Shown: positions 2,596-30,550 of the stretch, piece after piece
How positions within the stretch are numbered: position 1 is the stretch's first letter
Layout of the letters: each line of letters opens with the position of its first letter
Source of the DNA: Gammaproteobacteria bacterium
Lineage (GTDB): Bacteria; Pseudomonadota; Gammaproteobacteria; Nitrosococcales; Methylophagaceae
Direction: 5' to 3'
Length of the DNA stretch: 64,000 nucleotides
Assembly (NCBI GenBank): GCA_029248745.1
Contig: JAQWIT010000008.1
Location: 62,001 to 126,000, forward strand
Translations under genes and position numbers: made by a program
Notes under the pieces: model-generated
Databases searched by the model: none
Told to the model about the DNA's origin: nothing
The model's input: the letters and a program-made list of their open reading frames with translations, nothing else

Positions 2596-3149
2596 GGGCT
2601 AGCAATTTGCCACTTATCTGAAATGAGCGCACCGGGCCTCATAGGTGTGGGTAAAGCGTGAATGTCGAGTTCGCTTTGAATTTCTAAGAGCGTGGTGTCT
2701 GGGTTGATGTCATGTTTTGGTGGCAAGGTGAGCTGTTCAATTTTACCTAAGGTATCTAATGCCGAATTTAAGGAGGGGAAATTGCGGCGCTTATCGGTAT
2801 CCATTGCCAATAAAATATATTGCTCAGATAGCGCGTGATAACGTAGTTGATAGCTAATCACTGTCGACCAATGTGTTTCTCGCCAATCCCATGGCAGATA
2901 GGCGCCAATGACAGGGAAAGGCTCGCTGAGCCGAAAGTGTTGTAAAAAGGTAATGGGAACCCCGTTTTCTAAGGCTTCGATCACACGAGGTGATAATGGG
3001 TAATGAATAGTGGCATTGAGCGAATAGCCGTTACCTCTTTTTGAGATAGATGCGTTATCGATATAAAAGTGTTCGGCTGCCTGACTGTTAAGGCAGAACA
3101 GCAGTAAAAAGGCGGCTATGCTTTTTTTAACGATGGCGTAGACAGGCAT
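2571..3149 (-). CDS. DUF4390 secreted protein between rsmB and ntrY
   Basis: This small exported protein of unknown function belongs to the DUF4390 family, recognised mainly by context: it normally sits between rsmB and ntrY in gammaproteobacteria. I chose the ATG at 3147-3149 because it directly precedes a signal peptide (hydrophobic core AAFLLLFCLNS, likely cleavage after SQA). The longer reading frame starting at 3245 would add a non-secretory leader lying wholly within rsmB; an ATG at 3159-3161 is also possible. The start overlaps rsmB by about 23 bases and the stop overlaps ntrY, so the genes form one tightly packed operon. A periplasmic partner role for NtrY is plausible but unproven. 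Confidence 0.75.
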   Translation of the reverse strand: MPVYAIVKKSIAAFLLLFCLNSQAAEHFYIDNASISKRGNGYSLNATIHYPLSPRVIEALENGVPITFLQHFRLSEPFPVIGAYLPWDWRETHWSTVISYQLRYHALSEQYILLAMDTDKRRNFPSLNSALDTLGKIEQLTLPPKHDINPDTTLLEIQSELDIHALPTPMRPGALISDKWQIASPWVTASWP

Positions 3150-4440
3150 AAAAGAAGCCATCTTGCTGGTTTTCGCCAGGAAGACGTTGATAGCCGGCAG
3201 GCCTTCGTGTCGCCGGCTCAGGATTGAGTTTATATTCTTCCGCATCTGGGTGCCGATTTAGAAAGTTAATGATTTGTTGTTCATTTTCTTGTTTGATAAT
3301 AGAACAGGTTGTGTAGATTAATAAACCATCAGTGTTGAGCAATGGCCATAATTTTTCAAGTAATAGCTGTTGCTTTTCGACGAGGCTATCTATATCGCTG
3401 AGTCTACGGAGTGTTTTTATATCAGGATGGCGGCGAATGACACCCGTCCCTGAACAAGGGGCGTCGATGAGAATTCTATCGAAATGCTGGCCATCCCACC
3501 AACTGTCAATGTCACCGGCGTCAGCCGCCTTTAGCGTTGCTTTGAGTTTAAGCCGCTCTGTATTTTGGGTTATCTGAGTCAGCCGGTTTGGATCAATATC
3601 TAAAGCGATAACATCGTTATTGGGTTCTATTTCTAAGATATGGCAGGTTTTACCACCGGGTGCGGCACAGGCATCGAGGATGCGTTGCTGTGGTGCAAGG
3701 TCGAGTGTGGCTGCGACGTGTTGTGCAGCGGCATCTTGTACCGATACGTCGCCGTCGACGAATCCGGGGAGTTGATAAACATCACAAGGGGAATCGAGAA
3801 GGATCGCTTGTTCAAGCTGCTCAACGGGAGTAGCTGCAATATTTCCTTGTTCGAGTCTTTCGATGTAATTATCGCGGTTAGAATGTTGCTGGTTCACGCG
3901 TAAAAACATAGGGGGTTGTTCGTTGTTTGCGTTAAGTACAGTTTGCCAAGTGGTTGGCCAATCAGTTTTTATTTGCTGGATAAGCCAGTCAGGGTGTGCG
4001 AATTGTGCTGTTTCACTCTGTAATACTATTTTTTCGAAGTCGGCTTGGTTTCTTTGATAATTTCTTAAGCTAGCATTGATCAGGCCTTTTGCCCAAGGTT
4101 TTCCAAGTGCACTGCAGGCATTAACGGTTTCAGACAGCGCGGCATGTTCTGGTAACCGCATCGAGCGAAGTTGATAGAGACCACAGAGTATAAGTGCATT
4201 GATATCGGACTCTTTAGCTTTAAGTGGTTTTGATAGTAATTGGTTACAGATGGCTTGTAATTGGGGTTGCCATCGCAATACGCCATAGCAGAGTTGTTGG
4301 CAGAAGCTGGTTTCATTTTCTGGCAATGTAGCCAACATGGGCTTTAAAGTGTTGTTAAGAGAATGGTGATGGCGCAGTACATTGCCAATGACTTTTGCAG
4401 CGGCAGCGCGTGATGTTCTGAACGGTTTGGCTTTAGCCAA
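3127..4440 (-). CDS. rsmB: 16S rRNA m5C967 methyltransferase RsmB
   Basis: RsmB methylates C967 of 16S rRNA using S-adenosylmethionine. The 437-residue product has an N-terminal NusB-like RNA-binding domain (about 1-140) and a C-terminal Rossmann methyltransferase domain. The SAM motif DACAAPGGKT, the conserved C329 in DAPCSGTG and the catalytic C379 in TTCSI are all present; these two cysteines correspond to the pair used by m5C RNA methyltransferases. Length matches the Escherichia coli protein. The start overlaps the end of fmt by eight bases, continuing the def-fmt-rsmB operon. No anomalies were seen. Confidence 0.96.
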   Translation of the reverse strand: MAKAKPFRTSRAAAAKVIGNVLRHHHSLNNTLKPMLATLPENETSFCQQLCYGVLRWQPQLQAICNQLLSKPLKAKESDINALILCGLYQLRSMRLPEHAALSETVNACSALGKPWAKGLINASLRNYQRNQADFEKIVLQSETAQFAHPDWLIQQIKTDWPTTWQTVLNANNEQPPMFLRVNQQHSNRDNYIERLEQGNIAATPVEQLEQAILLDSPCDVYQLPGFVDGDVSVQDAAAQHVAATLDLAPQQRILDACAAPGGKTCHILEIEPNNDVIALDIDPNRLTQITQNTERLKLKATLKAADAGDIDSWWDGQHFDRILIDAPCSGTGVIRRHPDIKTLRRLSDIDSLVEKQQLLLEKLWPLLNTDGLLIYTTCSIIKQENEQQIINFLNRHPDAEEYKLNPEPATRRPAGYQRLPGENQQDGFFYACLRHR

Positions 4441-21975: not shown

Positions 21976-22101
21976 ATTGTGCTTGAAAATAAATGAGTTT
22001 CGCCCGTTTAATATGTTTCGGGATAGTTAGCGCTTAAATATTTCCCGAGGTATTGGTATAAGGCTTGTACTTACGCATTGTGTTTTAAGTCTCGGAGGAA
22101 T

Positions 22102-22347
22102 ATGTACCATAAAAAGTTAGTTTGCTCTTGTTTAAGGTTCTTAATGGCTAATTTATAGATACGGCAGCTGTTGGGTTCGATAGTGAGCAAGGTATTTTAG
22201 CCATGGCGATCACTTCTCACCCTGACTTTGATGACACCCCCCTATTTTGATGAAAATGGCGATGGTCGGTTTAAGGATCAAATTGAGTCGTTGTTGGGAC
22301 AGAAAGTGGGTTATAACAGACTTGGCCGACCGGAGCAGCAGTCATAA
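22102..22347 (+). pseudogene. Gene remnant with two apparent frameshifts
   Basis: The gap 21976-22413 has no intact gene, but protein-like segments appear in register. ATG 22102, just after GGAGGAA, reads MYHKKLVCSCLRFLMANL to a stop. A shifted frame then gives DTAAVGFDSEQGILAMA and SHPDFDDTP up to a C6 run at 22237-22242. Dropping one C continues as YFDENGDGRFKDQIESLLGQ to TAA 22345-22347. The DENGDGRFKD piece resembles an EF-hand-type calcium loop. I do not recognise the family, and the reconstruction is tentative. The rest of the gap shows nothing. Confidence 0.35.
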
Positions 22348-22413
22348 GAAGTTTGACTGACAACGAAAAACGAAAGTCGCTATGGTCTTTTTATTACATG
22401 TGTATTCGAATGA

Positions 22414-23016
22414 TTACATTGATTTTAGTTTGGCGCTGATCTTATGAAAGAATTTATGCTTTTTGCTTGCGGCTTCACTGGCAAGGAAATTGACTTGGAT
22501 AGCATTGCGCGTGCCTTCAAATGATGGATAGCCGTGCCAGCAGTTGTCAGTGACTTTAAAGGCAATCATGCAGCCAGCAGTGGGATTTACTTCTTCAGCA
22601 ATATCATTCATATCGTCGCTGTTTAGGATGCGTAATTTACCCGTTTCTGCTGACCATCCATCATTGAAGTAGATCAGGATGGTGAGGAGTTTGGTTTTTG
22701 AGTCTGTATGAACGCGGCCGTCTTTAGTACGTGAAAAGCCACGGTATGTAAGCATTAATGGTGAGTTAGTCACATCAATATCGAATTTTTCAGACAGTGC
22801 TTGGCGAAACTCTTGTGAGTCGAGGGCATTGTGTAGTGCTTCGTAATTGGCACTGAGATCTAAATCTTCTTTATTAAAGCTACCACCGCGTGTGATGGTG
22901 GGGAAATCCTGTATAAGTTCTGTTATCTTTTCTTCGAGCATAGATTGCTCGATAGAGAAGTAGGGAAAAGGCTGTGTTTTAAGCGGTGTGTTGTTGATTA
23001 AGTCGATATTGATCAT
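22414..23016 (-). CDS. 2-oxoglutarate/Fe(II)-dependent oxygenase
   Basis: This 200-residue soluble protein fits the prolyl 4-hydroxylase-like 2OG-Fe(II) oxygenase superfamily. The iron triad is visible as H103 and D105 (GRVHTDSKTK) and H161 (NCWHGYPS), with R170 (EGTRNAIQVNF) placed to bind the 2-oxoglutarate carboxylate. Such enzymes hydroxylate proteins or small molecules using O2. The substrate is unknown, and the neighbours (gene remnant, broken membrane gene) do not help. Lengths near 200 residues are common in the family. Confidence 0.85.
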   Translation of the reverse strand: MINIDLINNTPLKTQPFPYFSIEQSMLEEKITELIQDFPTITRGGSFNKEDLDLSANYEALHNALDSQEFRQALSEKFDIDVTNSPLMLTYRGFSRTKDGRVHTDSKTKLLTILIYFNDGWSAETGKLRILNSDDMNDIAEEVNPTAGCMIAFKVTDNCWHGYPSFEGTRNAIQVNFLASEAASKKHKFFHKISAKLKSM

Positions 23017-23052
23017 GGCGTTTACCGCTGAGTTGTGTTGTTAGTGTTCAGT

Positions 23053-23529
23053 TTACGCCTTTCTGCTTTGGCTGGCATTATTCTTTTGTCGTTTTGTCGT
23101 TTTGTCTTCTTTGAGAAGCTGATTTGCGAAGCGTTTGACTTGCAGAGCATACAGTGCAAGTTGGCTACCGGTTCGAATGACGGCTGTGGCCAAGCTGCCA
23201 ATGACCATCAAGAGGATAACAACAATGCCCCAAGCGAGAAAGTAGGTCACTTTGAGTGTAGGTGAAGGTTGTTGGTGTTGTATTGGGGCTGTGTCATTTT
23301 CAAGTAGTTTAGGGATACTTTTACCTTTGGTGACGGATGCCAGTATGGCGTCGAGATTAGAGCCATGTTCGATGGCATCGACAAAGCGTTCTATACGCTG
23401 GGGTTCTTCATAGAGATGCTAAGCTTCAAAGGTGACTTTGATGCCGACATAGAGCCTGACGAGTAGCACGACAAGACCAATAAGCCTGACGATAATAGAA
23501 AGGATGTCGTTTGCATTCGAGTTGGCCAT
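23053..23529 (-). pseudogene. Small membrane-protein gene interrupted by an amber codon
   Basis: From ATG 23527-23529 one frame runs 158 codons to TAA 23053-23055, broken only by a TAG at 23419-23421 (codon 37). Before it the protein reads as a transmembrane segment (DILSIIVRLIGLVVLLVRLY); after it comes a soluble stretch starting HLYEEPQRIERFVDAIEHG, and a second transmembrane segment (FLAWGIVVILLMVIGSLA) with a basic tail. A single CAG to TAG change would explain the stop. Coding quality is maintained on both sides, so the lesion looks recent. I do not recognise the family. Confidence 0.65.
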
Positions 23530-23592
23530 AGTTAACCTTGTTGATGGTCTTGGATGGCAATAAATTTAATCTAGCATAATGGCAGTTGGAAT

Positions 23593-23625
23593 AAAAAAAG
23601 GGCCGTTCATTGCTGAGCAGCCCTT
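23593..23625 (-). terminator. Rho-independent terminator after amtB
   Basis: On the minus strand AAGGGC (23620-23625) pairs with GCCCTT (23598-23603) around a 16-base loop, followed by a T run (23593-23599). It lies about 30 bases past the amtB stop. Confidence 0.75.
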
Positions 23626-23654
23626 ATTATTACTTCGCGTTTTAACGTGTTGAA

Positions 23655-24920
23655 TTATCTATCTGTGAACTCTGGGTATGCTTCCATACCACATTCACTT
23701 AAATCAACACCTGCGTACTCTTCTTCTTCTGATACGCGGATACCCATGACCACTTTCAAGAGTGCCCAGACAATAAAGCTTGCTACAAATACCCATACAA
23801 AGATGGTTGCTGCACCAATCAATTGGCCGCTGAAGCTCGCATCGCCGTTTGTTAATGGCACTGCTAATAAGCCCCATAAACCCACAACACCGTGAACCGA
23901 GATAGCGCCTACTGGATCATCGATTTTGAATTTATCCATAGCGACGATTGAGAAGACAACTAAGACACCACCTGCGGCACCAATTAAGGTTGCTACAAGT
24001 GGAGATGGTGTATCTGGGCCTGCTGTAATGGCTACAAGTCCTGCTAAAGCACCGTTTAAGATCATGGTTAAGTCGGCTTTACCGAACATGATTTTAGCGA
24101 TAATTAACGCTGCGATTACACCACCCGCTGCTGCTGCATTGGTATTCAAGAAGACCATTGCAACGGCGTTGGCACTGGCCATATCACCTAGTTTTAAGAC
24201 TGAACCACCATTGAAACCGAACCAGCCCATCCATAGGATGAATGTACCTAGTGTCGCTAATGGTAAGTTAGCACCTGGGATTGGTTTCACTTCACCGTTT
24301 GCGCCATATTTACCTTTACGTGCGCCAAGTAGTAAAACACCTGCTAATGCAGCAGCTGCACCAGCCATGTGGACGATACCTGAACCCGCAAAATCAAGGA
24401 AGCCAAGGTCGCCTAAATTGTATAGGCCAAAGACATCGTTACCGCCCCATGTCCAGCTACCTTCCATTGGGTAGATAAAAGCTGTCATAACGACTGCAAA
24501 TAAAGCGAAAGCACTTAGTCTCATACGCTCAGCAACAGCACCTGATACGATTGACATGGCTGTCGCAACGAAAACCACTTGGAAGAAGAAGTCAGATGCC
24601 GACGAATAAACTGAACCGCCGTCAAAACCTGCTTCTGCTGATGCGGCTAAGGCATCTGCAACCAATGTGTCACCGCCATCGATTCCATCAAGGAAAAGAC
24701 CACCGCCGTACATGATGTCATAACCGACAACAAGATAGGCTGTACAAGCGATCGCAAAAAGGATCACGTTTTTAGTCAAAATTTCTGTCGTGTTTTTTGC
24801 ACGAACAAGGCCTGCTTCTAACATTGAGAAGCCGGCTGCCATCCACATGACGAGGGCACCACAAACTAAGAAATAGAATGTGTCCATCGCATATTGGAGT
24901 TCGAAAATATGGTTCTCCAT
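23655..24920 (-). CDS. amtB: Ammonium transporter
   Basis: AmtB imports ammonium across the inner membrane as a trimer and is closed by GlnK. The 421-residue protein has about eleven hydrophobic segments, the family signature around DFAGSGIVHMAGA, and the pore twin histidines H184 and H343 (SVHGVVGLWG). The C-terminal tail (from about 395) is the part that normally touches PII. It has no obvious cleaved signal peptide. It follows glnK after 19 bases, the near-universal glnK-amtB pairing. Confidence 0.96.
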   Translation of the reverse strand: MENHIFELQYAMDTFYFLVCGALVMWMAAGFSMLEAGLVRAKNTTEILTKNVILFAIACTAYLVVGYDIMYGGGLFLDGIDGGDTLVADALAASAEAGFDGGSVYSSASDFFFQVVFVATAMSIVSGAVAERMRLSAFALFAVVMTAFIYPMEGSWTWGGNDVFGLYNLGDLGFLDFAGSGIVHMAGAAAALAGVLLLGARKGKYGANGEVKPIPGANLPLATLGTFILWMGWFGFNGGSVLKLGDMASANAVAMVFLNTNAAAAGGVIAALIIAKIMFGKADLTMILNGALAGLVAITAGPDTPSPLVATLIGAAGGVLVVFSIVAMDKFKIDDPVGAISVHGVVGLWGLLAVPLTNGDASFSGQLIGAATIFVWVFVASFIVWALLKVVMGIRVSEEEEYAGVDLSECGMEAYPEFTDR

Positions 24921-24939
24921 TACATTCTCTCCTAATTAA

Positions 24940-25281
<342 letters not shown>

Positions 25282-25298
25282 TTATTTCCTTCGTTGGT

Positions 25299-25334
25299 AA
25301 AAAGGCTGCTTAATCAAATCCTGATAAAGCAGCC
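25299..25334 (-). terminator. Terminator/attenuator between porin-like gene and glnK
   Basis: On the minus strand GGCTGCTT (25327-25334) pairs perfectly with AAGCAGCC (25304-25311), with TTTTT at 25299-25303. It starts about ten bases after the porin-like gene stop and ends only 20 bases before glnK, which leaves no space for a separate promoter. It therefore probably works as a partial terminator that lowers glnK-amtB expression relative to the porin-like gene. Confidence 0.75.
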
Positions 25335-25344
25335 ATCTAGTTGC

Positions 25345-26055
25345 TTATAAAGATTTTGAGACTGTGAAGATTAAGCGACCATCAGCGATATTATCGCCAT
25401 AGAGTGTTTCGCCATCACTATCAGAATCCGTGTAAGTTAGGTCCCAGCCGAAGCCAACAAGCTCGGTTGATAGGCCAATACGGTAATCTGTAGCGCTGTC
25501 TTCACTTGCGCCGAAAACATCATCGTCATAGTCGTAAAAACCAATACCTGTGCTCAAAGCGATATTCATTGGCAAATCGTAGTCAAAGCCTACTGAGTAA
25601 TACGTACCGCTTTCATCTGAAGCATAGACATCTCCTGAATGGGCCACACTAAGGCTGAAGGGGCCATAGCCAAAGCCAACGTAGACTTCATTCCAGTCAT
25701 AGTCTTCATCTGGGTAGATATAACGTAGGATACCGATATCGTAGCTGATGCCTGTGTCGCCAATTTCACTGGCGAAACCAGCGTAGATATCGATTTCCAT
25801 ACTCGTATCGTCACCGAAGTCGACATTTGAAGCCCATGTGCCGGCGTATAAACCACTTGAATGGCCTAGATCAAAGCTACCAGAGATAGCTGGCTCATTA
25901 TCTGTTTGTGAATAACCACGCCAAACATAATCACTAGACATTGCGACGCTAGCACTTGTAGACCATGCGCCATCAGCGCTTTCCCATGCCATAGCGGATG
26001 TTGTTGTTAATGCGCTTGCAGCAAGGCAGAGCATAGAGAGTTCTTTCATTTTCAT
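25345..26055 (-). CDS. TorF family putative porin (first copy)
   Basis: This 236-residue exported protein starts at the ATG at 26053-26055 (MKMKELSMLCLAASALTTT, signal peptide cleaved after AMA). The longer frame from 26172 adds residues unlike a signal sequence and runs into the promoter. The mature part is rich in alternating hydrophobic and aromatic residues, opens with a motif like SSDYVWRGYSQT and ends in KSL with F and V before it, as outer-membrane beta-barrels do. These features match the TIGR02001/TorF group of putative porins. It heads the sigma-54-linked porin-glnK-amtB unit, so a role in ammonium or amine entry is plausible but unproven. Confidence 0.85.
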   Translation of the reverse strand: MKMKELSMLCLAASALTTTSAMAWESADGAWSTSASVAMSSDYVWRGYSQTDNEPAISGSFDLGHSSGLYAGTWASNVDFGDDTSMEIDIYAGFASEIGDTGISYDIGILRYIYPDEDYDWNEVYVGFGYGPFSLSVAHSGDVYASDESGTYYSVGFDYDLPMNIALSTGIGFYDYDDDVFGASEDSATDYRIGLSTELVGFGWDLTYTDSDSDGETLYGDNIADGRLIFTVSKSL

Positions 26056-26132
26056 CGTTATTTGTCTCCCGGACGATTTGTACAATTCAAAGTGCTTGGG
26101 TAAGAGTTTCCAATACACGCTGACAGGTACAA

Positions 26133-26148
26133 AGCACGATGTGTGCCA
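26133..26148 (-). promoter_or_regulatory. Sigma-54 (RpoN) promoter for porin-glnK-amtB
   Basis: The minus strand reads TGGCACACATCGTGCT, matching the -24/-12 consensus TGGCAC-N5-TTGCW with one change (T to G) in the -12 box and the required ten bases between GG and GC. Transcription would start near 26122, giving a leader of about 65 bases before the porin-like gene. NtrC-type activation under nitrogen limitation is expected from the genes downstream. Confidence 0.75.
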
Positions 26149-26346
26149 GAAGAAAATAACTAGTAAAAACAACAGTTTAAATGGCTTGTGGTGTTTGGTG
26201 TTTTATGCGGTATGGATCATGATGGTGCGAGATAATTGCGGTTTCGCATTATTAAGGTGCGTAAGGGTGAGGTATTTTTGCAACGTTAGGGTAACTTTGT
26301 CGCTTTTGAGTACTGAGAGATGGTTTTAGTGGGGGAGAGAAATATA

Positions 26347-26381
26347 AAAAAGCCGCTGATCAAAATGATCAGCGGCTTTTT
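26347..26381 (-). terminator. Bidirectional-looking terminator after second porin-like gene
   Basis: GCCGCTGATCA and TGATCAGCGGC form a perfect 11-bp stem around an AAA loop (26352-26376). A-rich sequence precedes it and TTTTT follows, so it could work on either strand. Here it ends the minus-strand gene that stops at 26407 and isolates the sigma-54 promoter region. The rest of the gap 26056-26406 holds only that promoter. Confidence 0.9.
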
Positions 26382-26406
26382 GTTCTATCTTAAATCGACT
26401 ATTTAA

Positions 26407-27123
26407 TTATAGAGATTTAGAGATAGTGAAGACAAAGCGCGAATCAGTTAGGTTGTTGTTGCCAACAAAATCTTCTGCATCGCTAAGTGTTTTGTAGTAA
26501 GTAAGATCGAAATCAAAACCAACTAGGTTTTTAGTTACACCAAGATTGTAATCTTGAAGTGTGTCGTCATAGATATCATCATCTAGATCGTAGAATGCGT
26601 AGTTAGCGTGGAATTCGATATCCATTGGCAGGCCGTGGTTGAAGCCTAGTAAGTAGTGTGTACCACTGTCGCTTGTCGCTAATGCATCACCAGAGTGAGA
26701 TACTTGAAGGCTGAAAGGTCCATAGCCAAGACCAACGTAGGCTTCATTCCAGTCTGCATCGTCAGTACCTGGGAAAGCGTAACGAAGCATACCGACATCA
26801 TAGCTGATGCCTGTATTACCAATTTCGCTAGCAAAACCAGCATAATAGTTAAGCTCGATGTGTGCTGCATCCATGAGGATGTCATAATTAACGTTTGATG
26901 CCCAAATACCAGCATATAAACCTGATGCGTGACCAACATCGAAGCTACCAGAGATAGCTGGTTCGCTGTCAGTTTGTGAAGCACCACGCCACATGTAATC
27001 GCTGCTTAAAGCAACGCTTGCACTTGTGCTGAATTGACCGTTAGCGCTTTCCCAAGCCATTGCTGGTGCTGCTGTAAATGCGCTGGCTGCTAAGACTAGC
27101 GCTGAAAGTTGTTTTAATTTCAT
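26407..27123 (-). CDS. TorF family putative porin (second copy)
   Basis: This 238-residue protein is a paralogue of the neighbouring porin-like gene. Both share the signal peptide style (MKLKQLSALVLAASAFTAA here), the SSDYMWRGASQTDSEPAISG block, the GLYAG-WASNV and GFASEIG motifs, and a KSL ending. Tandem duplication is the simple explanation, followed by clear divergence in loop regions. It has its own terminator and probably its own promoter upstream, where I see no sigma-54 consensus. Likely location is the outer membrane; the substrate is unknown. Confidence 0.85.
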   Translation of the reverse strand: MKLKQLSALVLAASAFTAAPAMAWESANGQFSTSASVALSSDYMWRGASQTDSEPAISGSFDVGHASGLYAGIWASNVNYDILMDAAHIELNYYAGFASEIGNTGISYDVGMLRYAFPGTDDADWNEAYVGLGYGPFSLQVSHSGDALATSDSGTHYLLGFNHGLPMDIEFHANYAFYDLDDDIYDDTLQDYNLGVTKNLVGFDFDLTYYKTLSDAEDFVGNNNLTDSRFVFTISKSL

Positions 27124-27221
27124 GTTTCCCGTCTCCTGGAAGTACTAAAATAAAATTTTGACTGCATTAATGTTGTAAACTAACCACGACCTTCGTTGGC
27201 CTAGCTAATTATTAAATTGTC

Positions 27222-27267
27222 TCTAACTGCAGTTAAAACAAGACAAAGTTGCGCCATTCTAACTGCA
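27222..27267. repeat. Direct repeat upstream of second porin-like gene
   Basis: TCTAACTGCA occurs at 27222-27231 and again at 27258-27267, 36 bases apart, in the gap between the porin-like gene and lgt. Two similar boxes at this spacing could be a regulator binding pair, but a chance match is possible. Confidence 0.3.
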
Positions 27268-27344
27268 AATAGAGGCAGGAGCCAGTGTTTAGCGGTTTTT
27301 TGTCATAAAAATGTCATATTTTTACCTATATCTGTGAGCTTTGT

Positions 27345-28118
27345 ATGATTTATCCAACAATTGACCCCGTTGCCCTGTCATTAGGGCCTTTGCAAGTGCA
27401 TTGGTATGGGTTGATGTATTTATTTGGTTTTGTGGGCGCCTGGTGGTTGGGCCGTGTTCGGGCTGATCGATATGGCTGGACGGCTGAAGAAGTGGAAGAT
27501 CTCTTATTTTATGGTGCGATTGGCGTGATTGTTGGTGGACGAGTCGGGTATTCGATTTTTTATGATTTTCCGGCACTGATCGAGAACCCGCTTAATTTAT
27601 TTAAGGTCTGGCAAGGAGGCATGTCATTCCATGGTGGTTTGATCGGAGTGTTATTAGCGTTTGCTTTCTTTTCGCGCAAGACGGGTAAATCGTATTTTAC
27701 GATCAGCGATTTTATTGCACCGATGGTACCGATTGGTCTGTTTTTTGGCCGTATTGGTAACTTTATTAATGGTGAACTTTGGGGCAAGGTCAGCGATGTG
27801 CCTTGGGCGATGGTGTTTCCAAATGGTGGGCCGTTGGCGAGACACCCTTCTCAGTTATATGAAGCTATTCTGGAAGGATTGCTACTCTTTATTATACTAT
27901 GGTGGTATTCCGCAAAACCGAAACCGCTAGGTGCAGTGTCAGGTTTATTTCTATTGGGTTACGGTACATTCCGTTTTCTGGTTGAGTTTGTCCGTATTCC
28001 AGATCAGCAATATGGCTACCTATTATTAGATTGGATTACGATGGGCCAGATTTTATCTCTACCGATGATTGTGATGGGGCTGTTTTTTACTGTACGTGCT
28101 TATCAGAAAGCAGGTTAA
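27345..28118 (+). CDS. lgt: Prolipoprotein diacylglyceryl transferase
   Basis: Lgt attaches diacylglycerol to the lipobox cysteine of prolipoproteins, the first step of lipoprotein maturation in the inner membrane. The 257-residue protein has about seven hydrophobic segments, the [11 protein letters not shown] stretch with the essential histidine, and the family signature [13 protein letters not shown]. Length is normal. It converges on the frameshifted dgkA, one base apart. In many gammaproteobacteria thyA follows lgt; that is not the case here. Confidence 0.96.
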
Positions 28119-28119
28119 T

Positions 28120-28477
28120 TTAGCGTATTAAGATTACGCCCCAGGTCATGATGACGATGATAATGGACATAAGAACGGCTAAGGAGCCATAGTCTTTGGC
28201 CCTGCCTGATAAGGTGTGGCGTTCGGTACTGACACGATCAACAACACATTCGATCGCGGAATTGAGAATCTCGATGATCAGGACCAAAATAAGACTAATA
28301 ATCATGGCGACCTGCTCTATAGCTGTCACATCTAAGGAAGAAAGTGATGATGGTTAAAAAGACAAAGCCAAAAAATTCTTGTTTAAAGGCTGCTTCATTA
28401 GAGAGTGCTGCTTTTAGCTCTTGCCAAGAGTATTGGCATGCATAGACGAGGCGCATTAAACCAACATTTTTTTGCAT
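28120..28477 (-). pseudogene. dgkA: Diacylglycerol kinase DgkA, frameshifted
   Basis: Two frames together make a complete DgkA. The first, from ATG 28475-28477, reads MQKNVGLMRLVYACQYSWQ, then NEAAFKQEFFGF and LTIITFF. The second continues LDVTAIEQVAMIISL, then the active-site block EILNSAIECVVDR and the LSGRAKDYGS motif to TAA 28120-28122. The shift lies at TTCTTCCTTAGA, about 28334-28340; removing one C restores FFLDV, as expected in the family. DgkA recycles diacylglycerol in the inner membrane. As written the product stops after about 60 residues and lacks the catalytic block. A base-calling error cannot be excluded. Confidence 0.85.
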
Positions 28478-28651
28478 AAGTTCTATCCTGATGATTAGAC
28501 GATGCAGACTATAACATGTTTGTTTTTTGTGCACTTGTCTCTCGGTGATGAGGCTATGAATTGGACTTAAGTAAGTGATTTTAATTAATAAATATTTTAT
28601 TCGTGTTAAAATCGTAGGTTAATTAGTGATAGGGTTAGATGGGTTAGGCAT

Positions 28652-30550
28652 ATGGGTTATCAAGATCATTATGATGTGATTATTGTCGGCGGCGGTCATG
28701 CCGGGACAGAGGCTGCTTTGGCATCAGCGCGTCAAGGGGTTAAAACCTTATTACTAACACAGAATATCGAAACCTTAGGTCAGATGAGCTGTAACCCTGC
28801 AATCGGCGGGATTGGTAAAGGTCATTTGGTTAAGGAGATTGATGCGCTTGGCGGTGTTATGGCCCAAGCTGCTGATCGCGGTGGTATTCAGTTTCGGATA
28901 TTAAATGCCAGTAAGGGTCCTGCTGTTAGGGCGACTCGGGCACAAGCGGATCGGGTTCGTTATAAAGCAGCAGTACGTGAAGCATTAGAATCACAAGAAA
29001 ATCTATATTTATTTCAACAGACAGTCGATGACTTAGTGGTTGAAAATGACCGGGTTGTGGGTGTAGCCACACAAGTGGGTTTGAAATTTTCAGCAAAGGC
29101 CGTTGTGTTAACTGTCGGGACTTTTTTAGGTGGCTTAATCCATATTGGTATGAAAAATCATGGTGGTGGGCGTGCAGGTGATCCCGCTTCAATTGGTTTG
29201 GCAGAGCGTTTACGGGCGTTACCTTTTCGAGTTGACCGTCTAAAAACAGGCACACCGCCACGGATTGCAACGCAAAGTATTGATTATTCTCAATTGACCG
29301 AGCAGCCTGGTGATACACCGGCGCCGGTGTTTTCTTTCTTGGGTGATGTCTCTCAACATCCAGAACAGATTTCTTGTCATATTACCCACACTAATGAAGC
29401 AACACATGATGTGATTCGTGCGAATTTGGATCGGTCCCCAATGTATAGCGGTGAAATCGAAGGGATTGGCCCACGTTATTGTCCTTCGATAGAAGATAAA
29501 GTGGTTCGGTTTGCAGAACGAACCTCTCACCAAATATTCCTTGAGCCCGAAGGTTTGAATTGTGGTGAGGTATACCCTAACGGCATTTCGACGAGTTTAC
29601 CGTTTGATGTGCAATATGAGATTGTGCGTTCGATGAAAGGGCTAGAAAAAGCACATATCACACGACCAGGTTATGCCATTGAGTATGATTATTTTGACCC
29701 ACGAGATTTGCAACCTTGGTTAGAAACAAAACATATGGCCGGGCTGTTCTTTGCGGGACAAATTAACGGTACGACTGGTTATGAAGAGGCGGCTGCACAA
29801 GGTCTGATTGCAGGTTTAAATGCGGGTTTGCAAGTACGTGGTTTGACAGAATGGTCACCGCGTCGAGATGAGGCTTATATTGGCGTGATGATTGATGATT
29901 TGATCACTTCTGGCACACAAGAACCGTATCGGATGTTTACCAGCCGGGCGGAATATCGATTGATGCTGCGTGAAGATAATGCCGATGCACGTTTGACGCC
30001 GAAGGGTCGTGAATTAGGCTTAGTCGATGATCAACGCTGGGCAACATTTAATCAAAAACAAGATGCGGTTACGGCGGAAATAGCGCGATTAGATAAGGTG
30101 ATGTTTAGTCCTGAAAAAACAGATCAAGCCGTGGCTGAGTCTGTGTTGGGAGAGCCATTGAATAAAGCCAGCACTGCAATGGGTTTATTACGTCGGCCGA
30201 AGGTTGATTATGCTGGTTTGCTCACTTTATTGGGTGAAGAGAAGACGGTTGAAGATGTGGTGGCAGAGCAGGTGGTTATTCGGACGAAATATGCGGGCTA
30301 TATTAATCGACAACAAAACGAGATTGAACGTTTGCAGCGCCATGAAACAACTGCTTTACCAGATGATTTGAATTACGATAATGTTCGAGGTTTGTCGAAT
30401 GAAGTCCGTGAAAAATTGGCGAAGGCAAGGCCTAATAGCCTGGGTCAAGCGTCACGGATATCAGGTGTAACACCGGCTGCAGTCTCTTTGTTGTTGGTGC
30501 ATTTAAAACGTGAAAATCCTGTGCAGAATGATCAAAGCGAAGCCAGTTGA
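28652..30550 (+). CDS. mnmG: tRNA uridine-5-carboxymethylaminomethyl modification enzyme MnmG
   Basis: MnmG (GidA), together with MnmE, modifies the wobble uridine (U34) of several tRNAs using FAD. The 632-residue protein opens with the FAD-binding [20 protein letters not shown] turn, carries the two family signatures [11 protein letters not shown] and [14 protein letters not shown], and has a helical C-terminal domain that binds MnmE and tRNA. Length is normal. It starts the mnmG-rsmG-parA-parB series typical of origin-proximal DNA, with rsmG overlapping its stop. Its partner mnmE is about 28 kb away. Confidence 0.97.

Follow-up and report, generated by a model that had tools for sequence, protein, structure and literature searches.

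Within the window, that is, the whole 64,000-nt stretch of DNA analyzed here, the genes torF-B, glnK and amtB are best read as a nitrogen-starvation operon driven by NtrC and sigma-54, in which a hairpin at the 3' end of torF-B would yield an excess of the porin over GlnK-AmtB. This joint reading is the one favored, although appreciable doubt attaches to it. The operon type torF-glnK-amtB under nitrogen control is already known from Herbaspirillum seropedicae (PMC3023670), and the hairpin is the part that goes unreported in the portions of the literature that were accessible. The open-licence literature yielded no description of such a hairpin separating the porin gene from glnK, and the accessible portions of two papers on NtrC (PMC5491218 and PMC5648810) added nothing on this porin gene.

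Organization of the Locus and Identity of the Porin

The three genes lie on the minus strand in the order torF-B (25345..26055), glnK (24940..25278, a PII protein, PF00543) and amtB (23655..24920, an ammonium transporter assigned by profile to the "marine subtype" TIGR03644), which is the gene order of an nlmA-glnK-amtB type operon. The genome holds two PII genes and two Amt genes (in the window at 24940-25278 and at G000:C16:263785). The torF-B frame begins with the ATG at 26055 and encodes 236 aa starting with MKMKELSML, and its stop codon ends at 25345. The gap to glnK measures 66 nt and contains the hairpin GGCTGCTTTATCAGGATTTGATTAAGCAGCC (25304..25334, minus strand) and then TTTTT (25299..25303, minus strand), resembling an intrinsic terminator in sequence. 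Exactly 20 nt separate the T run from the glnK ATG at 25278, as the sequence-only reading had counted. A second TorF gene, torF-A (27123..26407, minus strand), is located upstream of torF-B, with a strong two-way terminator-like repeat (26381..26347) between the two. It is 62% identical to torF-B and lacks a sigma-54 box scoring at least 13. Tandem torF genes also occur in loci L069, L079, L081 and L082, and a second copy cut by the contig end is found in L076.

That the porin-like gene is TorF-like was confirmed by a score of 174.6 bits against TIGR02001 ("TorF family putative porin"), for which the cut-off is 47.15; this score and the predicted outer-membrane barrel together place torF-B in the TorF family. 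The AlphaFold2 model, built from 58 sequences and starting at residue 2, predicts a barrel of twelve strands (mean pLDDT 86.7, pTM 0.82). Among solved structures, the model is matched best by KdgM (Z 16.2, rmsd 2.3 over 164), a COG4313 channel (Z 15.9) and NanC (Z 15.7). A search of PDB sequences with the TorF profile returned nothing at E ≤ 1, so the porin claim rests on membership in the family and on similarity of fold. The monomeric 12-stranded porins KdgM and NanC, whose substrates are acidic sugars, would thus share the barrel fold with TorF-B according to the model, but they differ from TorF in having only 9-15% identity with it and in that TorF is strongly acidic. The median net charge of 78 paired TorF proteins is -29, and that of torF-B is -34. 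Such a strong negative charge would fit a cation-preferring pore, yet it is only a hint of this, since the proteins of marine bacteria are often acidic. In times of scarcity, the TorF-B pore would most likely admit ammonium, along with other small nitrogen compounds, to the periplasm.

Conservation of the Gene Order

Three samples of loci were compared. TorF was found in 42 of 59 related genomes and in 94 of 184 genomes from across the class, and 158 TorF loci from these two samples were compared. In 78 of the 158 loci torF is followed by glnK, and amtB stands behind glnK in 76 of those. The 78 pairs represent 36 of the 42 TorF-bearing genomes in the first sample and 48 of the 94 in the second, with six genomes common to both. 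A third sample comprised 80 named loci from a database scan, 59 of which have torF followed by glnK. Locus L080 is counted among the 78 pairs, and the torF that precedes glnK there resembles torF-A and is followed by a terminator of its own. Among the 92 torF genes termed unpaired are some whose locus is truncated at the end of a contig. At least one true pair also went unrecognized among them, namely L193, in which the reading frame of glnK starts before the torF stop.

Departures from the usual layout were also observed. The reversed order, with glnK-amtB followed by torF, occurs in L272, L300 and L304 (an Azoarcus bin, a Magnetococcales bin and a Rhodocyclales bin, respectively), and in L106 and L112 one torF is followed by two tandem glnK-amtB pairs. 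In L082 (about 3058-3769) the torF-B homologue looks frame-broken, with an internal stop and two frames, and the sigma-54 box, the gap hairpin, glnK and amtB are nevertheless retained.

A Candidate Sigma-54 and NtrC Promoter ahead of torF-B

The RpoN-type box that the sequence-only reading had placed upstream of the porin gene is present as TGGCACACATCGTGCT at 26148..26133 on the minus strand, with 93 nt from the box to the torF-B ATG. The sigma-54 and NtrC consensus sequences used for scoring, the latter being what we take to be GCAC-N7-GTGC, come from general knowledge. The 1.73-Mb genome contains the exact pattern TGGCACN6TGCW 6 times, by estimate about what its base composition would give, so a single match proves little; no clear genome-wide enrichment of the exact pattern was found. 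When up to one mismatch is allowed, 241 sites are found genome-wide versus 131 for the reversed pattern. Conservation is more informative. At a cut of 13, and with L078 and L162 dropped for having too little upstream sequence, a box precedes torF in 32 of 35 related, 35 of 41 class and 58 of 59 named torF-glnK pairs, compared with 2.0% of 1680 composition shuffles of the upstream regions and 29 of the 92 unpaired torF genes. Since the box is conserved upstream of torF in the pairs, the box in the window is more than a chance match.

Furthermore, palindromes of NtrC type with at least 7 of 8 letters were found 60-150 nt upstream of the box in 105 of 124 promoters (21/31, 33/35 and 51/58 in the three samples), versus 0 of 124 in torF coding windows; promoters scoring below 13 or having less than 150 nt of upstream sequence are omitted from this count. 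The palindromes are commonest in the bins at 75-84, 95-99, 105-114 and 120-124 nt upstream of the box, a spacing that would roughly correspond to helical phasing. Both NtrC-like sites of the window are degenerate, and they fall within the 105-114 and 75-84 peaks: CGCACCTTAATAATGCG (26245..26261, minus strand, 7/8 core letters) lies 112 nt upstream of the box, and CGCACCATCATGATCCA (26213..26229, minus strand, 6/8 core letters), which is weak by itself, lies at about 80 nt. The genome itself carries rpoN and a full ntrC (724 bits). The proposal that one nitrogen-type promoter serves porin, glnK and amtB is therefore supported by the conservation of both box and palindromes, and the motifs suggest that torF-B-glnK-amtB would depend on NtrC and RpoN.

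A Conserved Intercistronic Hairpin between torF-B and glnK

The window hairpin consists of 8 bp, one T.T mismatch and 4 bp; the hairpin and its T run stand as described beforehand, except that the stem is not quite perfect. Its folding energy is -17.7 kcal/mol (z -3.2), and 1 of 200 shuffles folds as well. It is missing from the output of a simple terminator scan, and the 7 Rfam matches listed for 23000-28000 all score below the family gathering score and all lie around the repeat at 26347-26381.

A strong hairpin was defined as having at least 8 bp with at least 5 G-C pairs, a criterion that was fixed after the first relatives had been seen, and counts were restricted to gaps of 45-100 nt with 40 dinucleotide shuffles as controls. 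Strong hairpins were present in 29 of 34 gaps from relatives, 24 of 29 from the class and 27 of 40 non-redundant named gaps, against shuffle means of 0.7, 1.6 and 3.3, respectively; two gaps were removed from the named set as duplicates, one of which matches a class-set gap (L253). The combination of porin gene, hairpin and glnK is also seen in Cupriavidus (L298) and Zoogloea (L275). A looser criterion gave a similar picture (29/34, 27/29 and 34/40 versus 1.6, 3.2 and 6.3). Moreover, the stem shows covariation. In the gaps of 17 relatives, chosen for being alignable, 98% of the stem cells are paired and 6 of 9 pairs have changed on both sides, with 23 cells showing such changes versus 7.9 in shuffles, and sliding the partner by 1-3 columns reduces pairing to 26-52%. 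In L072, L109, L111, L113, L115, L117, L120, L124, L125 and L127 the loop shares CTCTC-like letters while the stem pairs change, perhaps reflecting a second constraint on the loop.

It should be added that hairpins between genes are not rare, since 4 of 17 other codirectional gaps, in a small control with crude gene calls, carry a strong one. Regarding gaps shorter than 45 nt, 0 of 27 count as having a strong hairpin, those of Oxalobacteraceae included; the shortest have no space for one, and gaps below 30 nt in the first two samples or below 20 nt among the named loci were counted as without a hairpin and left unscanned. The operon accordingly works without the hairpin where the gap is short.

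The T Run and the Extent of Termination

At least 5 T among the 8 positions after the hairpin were found in 21 of 29 relatives, whereas random windows taken from the upstream regions of these relatives reach this in 15% of cases; the corresponding counts are only 3 of 24 in the class and 4 of 27 in the named set. A terminator-like form is seen mainly in the relatives of the window and, since the T run is mostly absent from the wider samples, the conserved element is an intercistronic hairpin that only sometimes resembles a terminator. These counts bear directly on the alternative in which hairpin and T run serve solely for intrinsic termination, so that fewer transcripts extend into glnK-amtB. 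The window element itself, a GC-rich hairpin with a direct U run (25334..25299), fits such a terminator, and the five T directly after the stem and their recurrence in relatives speak for it; however, the U run is not kept wherever the hairpin is kept, as would be expected if the hairpin were an intrinsic terminator throughout. That the hairpin is an attenuator and only that is consequently judged unlikely, and the internal attenuator of the sequence-only reading survives for the closer relatives and not for the wider samples. The defining features of intercistronic stabilizers of the puf/malE type are taken here from general background, and the role of the puf hairpin itself from the same background and from cited titles. 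Set against these features, a conserved hairpin inside an operon with an optional T run is what is found here. With its modest stem and short U tract, the hairpin may let nearly all polymerases read through.

Separate transcripts are a further alternative, in which torF-B would end at a full terminator and glnK-amtB would start from a promoter inside torF-B. A precedent of sorts is seen in L176, from another family, where inspection by eye places an inverted repeat directly after torF and a second sigma-54 box with NtrC-like sites in the 325-nt gap before glnK. Within torF-B, the window has a weak site of sigma-70 type (25924..25897), and sigma-70-type promoter matches are not enriched in 22000-30000 (15 versus 16.7 in shuffles). 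The gap in the window is 66 nt, however, and from the start of torF-B to glnK the best sigma-54-like match scores 12, below the cut of 13. The claim that glnK has no room for its own promoter is right for the 20-nt stretch behind the T run, whereas a sigma-70-type start within torF-B may exist. The relative operon of H. seropedicae is moreover described as a single operon in the part of the source that was available (PMC3023670), and separate transcripts are considered very unlikely in the window.

The Hairpin as Partner of the Porin Gene

Whether the hairpin accompanies torF or glnK can be judged from loci in which the two genes occur apart. The leaders of glnK were compared at 30 loci from 58 genomes searched. 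Within 80 nt upstream of glnK, a strong hairpin was seen at 2 of 22 glnK-amtB loci without torF and at 3 of 5 torF-bearing loci; gaps of 30-200 nt between glnK and amtB contain none (0/13). In L080, which lacks torF-B, glnK is preceded at about 100 nt by a sigma-54 box (TGGCACGTATCCTGCT), and no strong hairpin was found in the glnK leader. On the other side, torF directly precedes urtA, the gene for a urea transporter binding protein, in L205, L207, L213, L219, L227, L237 and L241 (identified by TIGR03407 for five of the proteins and by similarity for the other two), and 5 of these 7 torF-urtA gaps have a strong hairpin. The gap of L237 contains a longer-looped repeat followed by ten T, and that of L227 contains none. 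In L232 a formamidase gene begins 304 nt after torF, with a hairpin and T run immediately 3' of torF. A sigma-54 box together with an NtrC-type site was found in the urtA and formamidase loci except L205 and L213, and in 18 of the 92 unpaired torF loci overall. The hairpin therefore belongs to the 3' end of the porin gene, being rare before glnK without torF, recurring before urtA and absent in L080. An element of the glnK 5' leader that controls GlnK translation or serves as a regulator's target was set aside on these same counts as the least probable explanation of those considered, even though strong hairpins end at a median of 21-22 nt before the glnK start and could affect ribosome access.

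Comparison with Known Systems

The nlmA-glnK-amtB operon of H. seropedicae resembles that of the window in having a membrane protein gene, glnK and amtB. According to the part of the source available, its genes are apparently co-transcribed, its expression depends on NtrC with amtB::lacZ 21-fold higher under nitrogen limitation, and NlmA, whose gene is also called orf1, owes its name to having been detected in membranes when nitrogen was limiting (PMC3023670). By profile, relatives within Oxalobacteraceae carry TorF at the nlmA position, NlmA itself being compared by gene position. Noviherbaspirillum (L282, L301), Herminiimonas (L306) and Paucimonas (L292) have gaps of 18-26 nt with no strong hairpin, so the H. 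seropedicae operon, unlike that of the window, probably lacks the hairpin.

Operons whose transcript segments are unequally stable, and so differ in dose, offer a second comparison. As far as the accessible portions of the sources go, segmental transcript stability sets dose in the Rhodobacter puf operon (PMC6238624), and differential stability affects about 12% of polycistronic mRNAs in E. coli, where the protective structures generally lie within coding regions and not between genes (PMC5927463). The operon of the window differs from these in its genes, in that differential decay is here a deduction, and in the T run added in one lineage. Finally, FmdC of Methylophilus is presented, in the available text of two papers that cite it (PMC11064514, PMC5877670), as an outer-membrane porin for short-chain amides and urea. 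FmdC is like TorF-B in being a porin tied to the uptake of small nitrogen compounds, a likeness drawn from its description.

Proposed Working of the Operon and Its Implications

In the favored joint reading, low nitrogen would activate NtrC, and phosphorylated NtrC would act from its candidate sites, which lie some 80-110 nt ahead of the box. Sigma-54 polymerase would then start the transcript about 67 nt before torF-B. In the lineage of the window, the T run would stop some polymerases after torF-B. Transcripts that read through would be cut downstream, and the hairpin would block 3'-5' exonucleases, so that the torF-B segment would outlast the rest. Partial termination in the lineage of the window and the exonuclease block more widely would both leave more torF-B RNA than glnK-amtB RNA. 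As the outcome, many copies of an abundant outer-membrane pore would be made per GlnK-AmtB complex. We infer the terminating or stabilizing effect of the hairpin, as well as the direction of the stoichiometry; this direction makes sense in that the cell requires a pore in large numbers but few sensor-transporter complexes. Setting stoichiometry, as the sequence-only reading proposed, would most likely be the purpose of the hairpin.

A broader reading, held more tentatively and short of being favored, is that TorF, the sigma-54/NtrC promoter and the 3' hairpin make up a portable module placed before glnK-amtB, urtA and possibly formamidase genes. The hairpin would here insulate the porin from whichever genes follow, and the pore would always be in large excess over the inner-membrane transporter.

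Scarce ammonium or urea is usually taken to cross the outer membrane by diffusing freely through general porins. A different idea arises from a porin devoted to this task that has an NtrC-type promoter, stands before ammonium and urea uptake genes and is equipped with a conserved RNA device that could raise its dose. If this is true, the permeability of the outer membrane would be a regulated step of nitrogen scavenging.
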